DNA of 64,000 bases from Thioalkalivibrio thiocyanodenitrificans ARhD 1 (GTDB taxonomy: Bacteria; Pseudomonadota; Gammaproteobacteria; Ectothiorhodospirales; Ectothiorhodospiraceae), in the NCBI RefSeq assembly GCF_000378965.1, contig NZ_KB900536.1, positions 3,001-67,000 on the forward strand, written 5' to 3'. Position numbers and translations under genes: made by a program. Each line of letters opens with the position of its first letter. Within the stretch, counting starts at the first letter, position 1. The notes under the pieces are model-generated. The model searched no databases and was not told the origin of the DNA. It was given only the letters and a program-made list of their open reading frames with translations. Shown here one piece after another: positions 974 through 7,293 of the stretch.

Positions 974-1417
974 TCACAGCAGTTTCTGACTTACAGAACC
1001 GGCAATACCCAAGACGAGGAGTAACACGCCCACTCCAAACGTACCGATTTGCCACCAGAATATGCTCCATGTTTTATTCCCGAGCTTCTCGGACAGAACA
1101 CGAAGAGGCCCCATCTCTTCGTCTGATTTCTTTTGCTCTCGCATTCTTGCCACTTTTGCCGTGGCGCGAAAATCCCGAAGCCGATTGACCACGCACCAGA
1201 TACCTAGCCCCACCGAAACCATAAGAGCCAACAGTGAAATAGAAAATGCGCACTTCTGCCAGGAAACAGGATTGAATTCTTTGTTCAGAAGGGTCGTAAC
1301 CTGGAACGCTAATGCGGCGACAGAAAAACCCAGGACTAAATTCACCGCATAGGTAAGCTGAGCAATCGTTGTCGATTGCCAGCGCACGAAACTACCCTTT
1401 GGACTATCCGTTGCCAT
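974..1417 (-). CDS. Cassette 5 three-helix membrane protein, unknown
   Basis: This 147-residue protein has three predicted transmembrane helices (about residues 20-43, 55-77 and 117-143). A charged cytoplasmic loop of about 35 residues lies between the second and third, with clusters such as RMREQKKSDEE. No catalytic motif is visible and I do not recognise the family. The ATG at 1417 lies 18 bases downstream of the group II intron's 3' end, and a GAGG stretch about 13 bases upstream may serve as ribosome binding site. The gene sits between the intron and attC5, so the intron now occupies its leader. Small polytopic membrane proteins are frequent among unknown integron cassettes. Function remains open. 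Confidence 0.72.
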   Translation of the reverse strand: MATDSPKGSFVRWQSTTIAQLTYAVNLVLGFSVAALAFQVTTLLNKEFNPVSWQKCAFSISLLALMVSVGLGIWCVVNRLRDFRATAKVARMREQKKSDEEMGPLRVLSEKLGNKTWSIFWWQIGTFGVGVLLLVLGIAGSVSQKLL

Positions 1418-1434: not shown

Positions 1435-2118
1435 GTCGCAGTAGGGACGCCGGTTACCCGGCGCCCCCTGCACAGATCCCGGCGTGCGGTTTTCCCGCAC
1501 CGGGCTCTTCAATCATGCTCACATTCGTAGAAGCAGCAATGCTGCTCATAGATAGTCCCTGCAAGAAGGTTGGCTCGTCGTACTCCGGCCCTACATTGTC
1601 CGGCGCGAGTTGCCTTTGCAAGCTACACATGACTGTCACTCCCTTCCCCATGTGATCGGCCCTACCGTCTCCGAGTACTATGGAGTGATCCGACTCCCCA
1701 TCGGCCTTCAAGCCAGCCTCCCGTTTGTAGCGGTCCGCTGTACTTTACCCTTCCCTTGGAGCCCATGGGGCCTCCCGCGTTCATGACGCATCTCTTGTTA
1801 CATGCCGCAGCTTGAGAACTCCGCCGGCTCTCTACAGGCTCACCAATGCGCCTGCTTCGTATGGGCTTCACGCGCGTTACAACGCTGGCCAACCGGGACT
1901 GTTCATTTCGAAGCGATTCCATCTCTAAGGAGCTACGTCTCCAAACGGCCTGCAACATACCCTGTGTACGCTTCACCTCTCTTGTTCACGCATGCTCCAG
2001 TCTTCGTGACCAAGGCACCGTTCCGCCAGAGGCGCAACACTCGGTAATGGTGGGTGGTTCACCCTTACCATGTCGGGACTCTCACCCGACCAGATGCGCC
2101 ACGCTTTGCGCGGCGCGC
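1435..2118 (-). mobile_element. Group II intron remnant (class IIC-attC type) without intact reverse transcriptase
   Basis: On the minus strand, domain V is clear at 1475-1507: GAGCCCGGTGCGGG, a GAAA-type loop, then the complementary arm CCGCACGCCGGGATC. It is followed by a domain VI hairpin with an A eight bases from the end, and the element finishes in AC, fitting the AY rule. Near the 5' end GTCGGGTGAGAGTCCCGAC and GGTAAGGGTGAACCACC match domain I of introns found at attC sites. The 5' end reads GCGCG rather than the usual GUGYG. The whole element is 684 bp against about 2 kb for introns with a reverse transcriptase, so most of that gene is gone. It sits exactly inside the R' core of attC4 (GTTA, intron, GAGGGC). 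It lies on the same strand as the cassette genes, whereas attC introns I know of usually face the other way. Confidence 0.85.
1549..1630 (-). pseudogene. Remnant of intron reverse transcriptase start
   Basis: After GAAGGGAGTGACAGTC an ATG at 1630 opens a frame beginning MCSLQRQLAPDNVGPE. This position and wording resemble the first residues of reverse transcriptases in attC-associated group II introns. Within about 27 codons the frame runs into the region just before domain V, so the catalytic fingers, palm, thumb and endonuclease parts are all missing. The frame stays open through domain V by chance. It is read here as an internal deletion product, not a working gene. Confidence 0.4.
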
Positions 2119-2183
2119 TAACGATCAAGCTCAGCCGCGGAGGCGCGTTAGCGCCGACGTCGGCTGGAGCGACTGGTTAGGTG
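2115..2183 (-). other. attC site of cassette 4, R' core split by intron
   Basis: R'' is CACCTAAC (2176-2183), complementary to GTTAGGTG at the 5' end of cassette 4. The arms CCAGTCGCTCCAGCCG and CGGCTGAGCTTGATCG pair imperfectly around a GGCGC hairpin. The R' core begins GTTA at 2119-2122. The next bases belong to the group II intron; the true remainder, GAGGGC, reappears at 1429-1434. Confidence 0.88.
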
Positions 2184-2188
2184 CTTCA

Positions 2189-4286: not shown

Positions 4287-4908
4287 CTGACTTAACCTCA
4301 TGACTAATTTCATCAATCCAACATCGGCACTTCTGTAACTCCGGCATTAAGGCTGAGAGCTCGACATCCCCAATCCCTTCTCCAGAACCCCGTGTGGATA
4401 ATATGCGGGCATGCATTAACAACTGGTACGCCTCATCTGAGATATTCAAACTTCTTGATCCGATTCTTCTTGCCGAATCCCTCCCAAAGGTCGGGATCTC
4501 CGTTCTTGCAAGGGAATAGCAAGTAGCAATATTACGCAAAGCCAGAAAAATTGTTGATAACTCAAAAACTAAGCTAGGAGATCCTGATCGCACAGATTGT
4601 AACGATTCCTCAAATATATCTCGAAACCTTGCACAATCTTCTGGCCCTGCCGTATATTCGCGCGGCTCCCCCAAACTTTTAAGAAAGTCTACGCCATCCG
4701 CACTGTAGATCAGCCGACTTTCAAGAGACAGGTGCCAAGCAAAGGCATTACCTGAATCCCATAGCTCCTTTATTCGTGTGTACGAATAAATGGAGAACTT
4801 TCCTGGACTGAGGCGAGAATCACGCCCTTTCACAAGAGCGAGCAGGTCGATATCTGAATCAACAGATATGTCTCCACGACAGATTGAGCCAAAGGCGTAT
4901 ATATGCAT
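4279..4908 (-). CDS. Cassette 1 second gene: nucleotidyltransferase of the pol-beta (MNT-like) fold
   Basis: The 209-residue product opens with AFGSICRGDISVDSDIDLL (about residues 5-23). This is the GS-x9-DxD active-site signature of minimal nucleotidyltransferases, which transfer a nucleotide to a protein, RNA or antibiotic. A further Asp in RLIYSADGVDFL may be the third metal ligand. The C-terminal two thirds are helical, as in kanamycin-nucleotidyltransferase-like proteins. The ATG overlaps the preceding stop by one base (TAATG), and the gene overlaps the following one by eight, so all three are translationally coupled. The N-terminus is very short before the GS motif compared with the usual 20-30 residues, so a helix may be missing. 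Function could be in toxin neutralisation, phage defence or resistance; the sequence does not decide. Confidence 0.82.
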   Translation of the reverse strand: MHIYAFGSICRGDISVDSDIDLLALVKGRDSRLSPGKFSIYSYTRIKELWDSGNAFAWHLSLESRLIYSADGVDFLKSLGEPREYTAGPEDCARFRDIFEESLQSVRSGSPSLVFELSTIFLALRNIATCYSLARTEIPTFGRDSARRIGSRSLNISDEAYQLLMHARILSTRGSGEGIGDVELSALMPELQKCRCWIDEISHEVKSDG

Positions 4909-5747
4909 TATCGTCGGCTAAAACGTTTAACTAGAATAGATACCAAACAAGCGAGCATTACATACCTCACGACTGCGATACCCGCCAAGACAAGGCCTGA
5001 GAATTCACTCGGTTTCACGATGCCAAGGAACACCTGTGGAGCATTATTTATCGCCTCTGCATAGCTAGCCAAGACATACGGATCCTTGAGGAAATATACT
5101 TCACCTACCGCAATGGCAAACAGGGCAACGAAAAATGTTCGAAGTAGCTTTAGCGAGCTTTCACCATTACCCCAGAACGCGTCAAGGAGGATAAACTCGA
5201 GCCACTCTAAAAAAGCTCTAGCGCGCTTCAAACCCGGATACTTCTTTCGGTAGTAAGACTCCCGAGATCGCCATGCTTTGTACAAATGGACACGGGCTGC
5301 TTCTAATTCAATCTTAATTGCTTTATTCGCCGCAACGGCATCTCCAATTTGATTAAAATTTACCCTAAGCGTTCTGGCAAACTTTTGTTGAAGATTCTCC
5401 TGCCCGGGACACCCTGTATCGAGAATTTCGGGCTCTACCTGTGTTTGAGAGAACTCCGCATAATCGAATACACATCCTTCAAACCTACTACCCCTGAGGT
5501 TCGAGCTTGTGAACTTGCACCCAATAAATTTGCATGAATCGAAAATGCAATTACGCAGGTACGCCGAGTCAAACTGGGAGTAACTGAAATCACAGTCCGT
5601 AAAGCGCTTCTTCGTAGCAACTGGGCGCTCAAACTGTTTATTCTTCAGGTTCACCCCTTTCAGATCATATGCAAACGCTCGATCAGAAAGGGTTTCCCTA
5701 CCGCTATCTCGAAAGTAGTCGTTCATGTCTCGGGAGTCATCCTTCAT
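4908..5747 (-). CDS. Cassette 1 first gene: pentapeptide-repeat protein with C-terminal membrane domain
   Basis: The product is 279 residues. From about residue 25 to 105 it shows pentapeptide-like repeats with central F/L (LKGVNLKNKQF, CDFSYSQFDSAYL, CKFIGCKFTSSNLRGSRF), which form a right-handed beta helix. A charged helical linker with paired basic residues follows (about 130-170). Two hydrophobic segments close the protein (FFVALFAIAVGEVYFL and SGLVLAGIAVVRYVMLACLVSILVKR). This layout resembles pentapeptide proteins fused to small ion-channel-like membrane domains; the pore filter is not obvious. The ATG lies only three bases inside the cassette, so no ribosome binding site of its own exists upstream. 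A start at codon 8, with AAGGA 14 bases before it, is possible. Confidence 0.78.
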   Translation of the reverse strand: MKDDSRDMNDYFRDSGRETLSDRAFAYDLKGVNLKNKQFERPVATKKRFTDCDFSYSQFDSAYLRNCIFDSCKFIGCKFTSSNLRGSRFEGCVFDYAEFSQTQVEPEILDTGCPGQENLQQKFARTLRVNFNQIGDAVAANKAIKIELEAARVHLYKAWRSRESYYRKKYPGLKRARAFLEWLEFILLDAFWGNGESSLKLLRTFFVALFAIAVGEVYFLKDPYVLASYAEAINNAPQVFLGIVKPSEFSGLVLAGIAVVRYVMLACLVSILVKRFSRR

Positions 5748-5895: not shown

Positions 5896-7293
5896 ATGCC
5901 TAACACCCCTCCCCGCGCTTCTGACGCCGCAGCCCGGTTTTTCGACAACTACCTGAGTCTCCTCGCAAAAAACGGCATTCCGGAGCGCCAGCGGCGATGG
6001 TATGTCAGGCACGTCGAGGCCTTCATCAAGGAGCAGAAGGGCCGCAGGATCAGGAGCCTCTCCGGGGCCGATATTGAGGCCTACCTTGATGTGTTGGGCC
6101 GCGAACGATGCCTTCCGGGCTGGCAGTTTTCGCAGCGTATTGCAGCCATCCGCATTCTCTACCGCGATCTGCTGAGAACGCCGGCCTCCGATGCGGTCGA
6201 TTGGCAGTACTGGCTGGACTCGGCCCGCGAGCTTGATGCCGACCACCCCACGACGGCGCGGCAGCTTTCTCCGGAGGAGCTTTCCTACATCAAGGAGCGC
6301 AGGAGCGACGGACCGCTCAACGAGGTGCGCACAGCGCATCGCGACCTGCTGCTGCGCTTCACTTCCGAGATCCGCAGGCGCGGTTATGCCTACCGCACCG
6401 AGCAGAACTACGAGCAGTAGATCTGCCGTTTTCTGCTGTTCTGTTCCAACTGCCTCCCTCAGGAGACCGCGGCGGCGCAGGTGCGGGCGTTTCTCGAACA
6501 CCTCGCAGTGAAAAAGCGGGTCAGCGCCAGCACGCAGAATCAGGCGCTCTGCGCACTGGTCTTTCTTTATGAACAGGTTTTTGGAAAGAGGCTGGGCGAG
6601 TTGGAAGGATTCGTGCGGGCCAGGCGCCCGCGCACCGTTCCGGTGGTACTCAGCCGGGCCGAAGTGAAGGCCCTGCTGTCCGGCCTTGATGGCGTCCATC
6701 GACTGATCGCATCCCTGCTCTATGGCACCGGAATGCGGCTGCTCGAAGGCCTGCGGCTGAGGGTGCAGGATGTCGATTTCGACTATCGCCGTATCCACGT
6801 ACGCCGGGCCAAGGGCAACAAGGACCGCTACGTTCCGTTGCCCGATTCCCTGGCCGACGAGCTGCGCAAGCAGATCGAAACGGTGCGGGAGCTGCACGAG
6901 AAGGATCTCGCCGCCGGATACGGCGAAGTCGTGCTGCCGGGCGCCTTGAACCGCAAGTACCCCAATGCCGGGCGCGAACTCGGATGGCAGTTTCTCTTTC
7001 CCGCCGGGCGTCTGGCCATCGATCCCTACGGCGGCGCCATCCGCCGCCACCATCTCCACGAAAGCGCCTTGCAGAGGGCGATAAGGCGGGCGGCGGCCGC
7101 CTGCGATATCCAGAAACGCGTCGGCTGCCACACCCTGCGCCACAGCTTCGCCACCCATCTGCTTGAGCGCGGGCAGGACATACGCACGGTCCAGGAGCTG
7201 CTGGGGCATGCCAACGTCTCCACGACGATGATCTATACCCATGTGCTGAATCGCGGCGGGATGGGGGTGCTGAGCCCGCTTGATACGGACTGA
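5896..7293 (+). pseudogene. intI: Integron integrase, long form, interrupted by one amber codon
   Basis: The frame encodes 465 residues of a tyrosine recombinase with a TAG at codon 175 (6418-6420). The context EQNYEQ[12 protein letters not shown] strongly suggests an original Trp (TGG to TAG), since this position in integrases is typically Trp in a Y-x2-W-x3-F motif. The rest is intact. The stretch [18 protein letters not shown] is the extra segment special to integron integrases. The catalytic set is present: Arg in [10 protein letters not shown], Lys in KGNKDR, HTLRHSF, His in LGHANVS and the Tyr in MIYTHV. An extra core-binding-like domain (about residues 10-115) precedes the usual one, making it about 130 residues longer than IntI1. 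With the stop it should give only a fragment, unless suppressed or restarted downstream. Confidence 0.93.

Follow-up and report, generated by a model that had tools for sequence, protein, structure and literature searches.

The window, the whole 64,000-nucleotide stretch of Thioalkalivibrio thiocyanodenitrificans ARhD 1 DNA analysed here, contains an integron whose cassettes lie on the minus strand and point away from its integrase gene, which occupies 5896-7293 on the plus strand (TIGR02249; open reading frame (ORF) list). The integrase gene carries an in-frame TAG at 6418-6420 (codon 175) with the frame intact on either side and, since this single stop interrupts an otherwise continuous frame, is probably a recent pseudogene. 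Between two attC sites, the interval 2650-2940 holds no convincing gene in cassette orientation and is possibly a gene-less cassette. Another cassette is interrupted at 1435-2118 on the minus strand (read from 2118 to 1435) by a 684-nt group II intron from which the reverse transcriptase (RT) gene is absent. The gene of this cassette (974-1417, minus strand; ORF list) has its start codon 17 nt past the intron and encodes a 147-aa protein for which a Pfam search returned no family. The 5' exon is the attC site of the upstream cassette (2119-2184, minus strand), which folds into a hairpin (p=0.01 against control GTTA sites) and has its R'', GCACCTAAC, at 2184-2176.

Full-length Rfam matches identified both parts of the intron, all on the minus strand. 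The core of domains I-IV matched the full RF02005 model (group-II-D1D4-6) at 1809-2082 (91 bits, E 3e-24). Domains V and VI, with a bulged A and a domain V triad of AGC (reading GAGC), matched RF00029 (Intron_gpII) at 1435-1509 with 44.7 bits, above the cut-off. An earlier note on this DNA had predicted a domain V match at 1475-1507; the domain is present, and the matched region is longer than that interval, running from 1509 to 1435. Judged from these matches, the intron RNA is IIB-like. Its 3' end, AC, agrees with the group II consensus AY. Its 5' end reads GCGCG against a consensus of GUGYG, a start that is common to active-looking RT-bearing relatives, other relatives beginning with GTGCG or GAGCG. 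Both this start and the cassette-sense orientation, opposite to that of IIC-attC introns (PMC7923331), are as the note described.

Excising 1435-2118 on paper fuses GTTA (2122-2119) with GAGGGC (1434-1429, minus strand; the remaining R' core plus the cassette start) and yields the exact reverse complement of GCCCTCTAAC (966-957, minus strand), the R'' of the same cassette. The complementarity of GTTA plus 3' exon extends to 11 nt, a length reached in none of 100 shuffles of the downstream DNA. The intron therefore divides the R' core of an attC site as GTTA|GAGGGC, and the proposal that removal of 684 bases restores R'/R'' complementarity holds.

The genome (3.75 Mb) contains three full-length copies of the intron (nt 1-684) that are 100% identical, plus fragments. 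They lie on the contig that carries the window, C1, at 4435-5118 (the window copy, minus strand), 2918379-2919062 (plus strand) and 3046163-3046846 (plus strand). All three run from GCGCG to CTGCGAC between unrelated flanks, which fixes the borders to the base, as had been claimed. No target duplication was seen at the intron insertions of this genome. A partial copy lies immediately behind copy 2, the head-to-tail pair occupying C1:2918379-2919545; of two further copies, one is divided by an IS3-like element and one is a 5' fragment ended by an assembly gap. Five distinct 5' flanks occur. In four of them the intron follows GTTA of an attC site, cut at the same base; at the fifth (C1:998966) it follows GCGTTG, outside attC. 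Copies that possess a 5' end are thus found in attC sites, once in tandem behind another copy and once, at C1:998966, elsewhere. Copies outside attC sites with different borders had been named as grounds for doubting the reading: the borders proved to be the same throughout, and this one copy does lie outside attC. On its central point, an RT-less group II intron with exact borders within an R' core and on the cassette strand, the earlier note was borne out.

Two of these loci have been rearranged. The copy at L018 2963-4967 (C1:996962-998966) follows GCGTTG downstream of a transposase-like gene and is interrupted by an IS3-like element, with CGG duplicated (3 bp). At L019 4380-8496 (C1:2918379-2922495), the second of the tandem ORF-less copies enters an IS3-like element, beyond which an RT-bearing relative follows; the bases on either side of the insertion sequence differ, which suggests recombination between two copies of it. 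If the contig is treated as a single circle, with dnaA at C1:2.33 Mb, the lagging-strand template would carry four of the five insertion loci, the window copy being the exception. We rejected an argument from replication-strand bias because the loci are too few and the evidence is too indirect.

The junction bases point to how the site may be chosen. EBS1 is a domain I loop, UAACGC, at intron nt 240-245 (1874-1879, minus strand), complementary to GCGTTA. The facing IBS1 (2119-2124, minus strand), which occupies the same position in copies and relatives, is TCGTTA in the window, where five of six positions pair, its other form being GCGTTA; it includes GTTA, the first four bases of the split R' core. 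The chief evidence for this pairing is covariation, since the loop and the last exon bases change together among relatives: GATCGT/ACGATC, CACACA/TGTGTG, CAGGAGT/ACTCCTG, CAACAA/TTGTTG and, as a fifth pair in the alignment, TAACGTCC/GGACGTTA. At L144 1238 (genome G196) the EBS1 loop, TAACGTCC, fits eight bases of its own exon, GGACGTTA, as if that intron had adapted to its own insertion site. A search of exon bases -7 to -13 for a common sequence found none, and no IBS2 was evident. Most GTTA insertion sites, but few of the relatives with other targets, are preceded by a hairpin, so the intron likely makes use of it.

Relatives were gathered by DNA and protein searches, and a 5' junction was readable in only part of them. 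RT-bearing members, mostly from Gammaproteobacteria with some from Desulfobacterota, are inserted behind GTTA| of attC and run with the cassettes; hosts include Ectothiorhodospira, a Sedimenticola MAG, Nitrosomonas halophila, Thiocystis, Desulfonema and other genomes. Among 38 readable 5' junctions, 27 end in GTTA, and an attC-like hairpin with R'' is detected at p<0.05 in 15 of these 27, against an expectation of 1.4. This figure comes from a home-made span test calibrated on 488 GTTA sites outside integrons; a minimum-free-energy DNA fold closed by R''/R' had proved too strict a criterion, and CGTTAG sites of the same loci were dropped as a control because genuine attC sites from those arrays were among them. 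The stronger test concerns the 3' exon. In 11 of 36 loci, GTTA plus the 3' exon complements a downstream TAAC-anchored motif (the R'' of the next cassette) for 8 nt or more; permuting exons among loci gave a mean of 0.8 such matches, and 11 was reached in 0 of 20,000 permutations. One Sedimenticola locus (L111) combines an attC-like 5' exon with a 10-nt 3' exon match. For several relatives, as for one copy in the genome of the window, the insertion site reads (C)GTT(A/G) and fails to score as attC.

The RT tree places the RT of this genome in a clade of 22 rows with support of 100/100. A sister subfamily whose introns begin TCGCGCC likewise occupies attC-like sites (L156-L158), and the core and sister subfamilies unite at the lower support of 88/88. 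What had appeared as a single odd case is one member of a lineage with an R'-core target. At L091 (Desulfonema magnum), introns begin at both 3298 and 3475, one truncated and the other longer; the two starts are 177 nt apart and each follows TTTAGCGTTA, which suggests repeated insertion into neighbouring sites. Searches of plasmids and phages returned only 73-nt matches to domains V and VI, and no empty site of the window cassette was found in 47 genomes of the family.

The intron has lost nearly all of its protein gene, as the earlier note had recognized. Domain IV retains about 30 N-terminal codons of the intron-encoded protein gene (1557-1651, minus strand; intron nt 468-562), with 88% DNA identity to an RT-bearing intron and a protein match to RT residues 1-40, and RT-bearing relatives are about 1.3 kb longer. 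ORF-less copies elsewhere align through the deletion scar at 92% (G042), 85% (G242, from another family) and 75% (G002) identity. A single origin for all of them was not upheld: the window, G042 and G242 copies group together, and the G002 copy has no firm position.

Alongside this shared scar and the near-identical copies, the genome holds one intact related RT of 455 aa (C1:2921020-2922384; TIGR04416), within L019. It has RVT_1 and a maturase domain just below the cut-off, and domain profiles revealed no endonuclease domain. The 5' part of the intron that carries this RT has been substituted, at the IS3-like element, by an ORF-less copy. It is plausible that the RT serves as trans helper of the ORF-less intron, and the identical ORF-less copies beside one intact related RT lend indirect support to the trans action that the note had raised. 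In G042, a draft assembly with an ORF-less copy, no helper RT was seen. Five copies of another group II RT, with an open frame of 482 aa and only 34% identity to the RT of the lineage, lie on C1 of the genome of the window (G000; L010-L014).

We put at about 0.85 the probability that the window intron is a non-autonomous, IIB-like mobile group II intron that targets attC, belongs with intron-encoded proteins devoid of an endonuclease domain and is mobilised in trans. The grounds for this are features legible in the DNA itself, namely structure, borders, identical copies, attC location, EBS1/IBS1 complementarity with covariation and a related intact RT. In the proposed mechanism the intron RNA, once spliced, would be carried by an RT/maturase supplied in trans, presumably the related one, and would reverse-splice into the top (cassette-sense) strand of attC, with EBS1 (UAACGC) pairing to CGTTA, where the R' core begins, beside the attC hairpin, which may be recognized as such. 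Completion of the cDNA, presumably primed at the replication fork, and repair would leave the intron between GTTA and the next R' base without target duplication.

A further proposal is more tentative, and we hold it at well under even odds: that these introns form a separate group II lineage with the R' core as homing site and move in two ways, as RNA and as DNA of a cassette. Insertion would fall three bases beyond the integrase cut and, with the 5' G of the intron, would retain GTTAG of the core. An intron with this GTTAG would then become the first part of the downstream cassette and could be shuffled with that cassette by the integrase.

The alternative that survives best, though we think it unlikely, is that CGTTA behind any hairpin suffices, attC being used as a supplier of both and not recognized as attC. 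It differs from the preferred reading chiefly in the contribution of the hairpin. It would accommodate the copy at C1:998966, which follows GCGTTG outside an integron, L085, which comes after a hairpin with ATGTTA, and several relatives at CGTTA without a scored attC. Against it, genomes contain CGTTA in abundance, and still many insertions fall in attC, with R'' complements in the 3' exons far in excess of chance.

Much less probable is spread of the copies as DNA, by cassette shuffling or homologous recombination, with the intron a dead remnant. Cassettes are mobile, the intron lies within a cassette boundary and it has no RT of its own. Against this, the copies are 100% identical with identical borders while their exons are unrelated on both sides, the invaded attC sites are those of different cassettes, and one copy lies outside attC. 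Nor would cassette movement be expected to produce a head-to-tail copy. Such a tandem would be expected if recognition lies in the 5' exon: the intron begins with G, so an occupied site retains the reading GCGTTA|G and could be entered again at its junction, which would be consistent with retrohoming and hard to obtain via cassette movement.

We see scarcely any chance that the window intron is a known group IIC-attC intron that entered the unusual (top) strand. IIC-attC introns run counter to the cassettes, entering the bottom strand at R'' (TTGT|T; PMC7923331). The target is of the same kind, but domain V reads GAGC, an AGC triad and not the CGC of IIC (PMC7923331), domains I-IV match RF02005, also found in Sinorhizobium and Klebsiella introns, and the site is the R' core, CGTTA|G, on the top strand and with the cassettes; motif, core and strand all differ, consistently across many relatives. 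Assembly of new cassettes by the intron, linking genes to attC sites, has been proposed for IIC-attC introns, as cited in PMC7923331, and was suggested for this locus in the earlier note, but it is highly improbable here because the 3' exon already fits the R'' of its own cassette, as at the other R''-matching loci, so that the cassette was complete before the intron interrupted it.

The lineage resembles IIC-attC introns such as S.ma.I2 in being apparently mobile on attC with a hairpin before IBS1; it differs in being IIB-like and in entering R' at CGTTA|R in cassette sense, whereas they are class C elements of bottom-strand R''. Sonbol and Siam 2021 described IIB introns beside attC, one cassette-oriented and two truncated, speculated on hairpins, and reported poor exon conservation with no common target defined (PMC7923331). 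IIB-like RNA, an endonuclease-less protein and attC location are shared with the present lineage, for which we define the base of insertion, the pairing of EBS1 and numerous independent insertions. Their UHB.I2, a IIB intron beside an attC-like structure, has the same cassette orientation but belongs to class CL1. H.ha.F1 and H.ha.F2 of Halorhodospira halochloris, class E, likewise endonuclease-less and missing their 5' ends (PMC7923331), are perhaps members of the same lineage, judging from their description. The proteins of the lineage are perhaps also class E, the tree separating them only from those of RF02005-type introns of Sinorhizobium and Klebsiella plasmids, which have the same RNA type and form a separate group; class D may be the sister clade of class E (PMC3552965).

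Most relatives bear an RT, unlike the window copy. A non-autonomous intron of this sort has its closest precedent in Thermosynechococcus elongatus (PMC2882425), where TeI3 introns likewise have a domain IV deletion with terminal remnants, occur as identical copies, lie adjacent or nested and are mobilised in trans by TeI4h and related proteins. Class and target differ, and trans mobility is experimental there and proposed here from sequence. Zimmerly and Semper 2015 credited attC targeting to class C alone (PMC4424553), and a literature search, with most subscription journals outside its scope, found no paper describing an R'-core target.

Introns that target attC are already known, and the apparently new part is the opposite-strand R'-core target of a IIB-like lineage. 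If a second lineage reaches the other strand via the R' core, attC has been adopted as a homing site more than once. The junctions supply a precise, testable target rule for attC-targeting introns, and intron insertion accounts for seeming exceptions to the R''/R' rule in cassette arrays; cassettes split in this way may be overlooked or misplaced by integron annotation tools that look for an intact R' core. The ORF-less intron and the RT would together constitute a natural two-part system directed at integrons.
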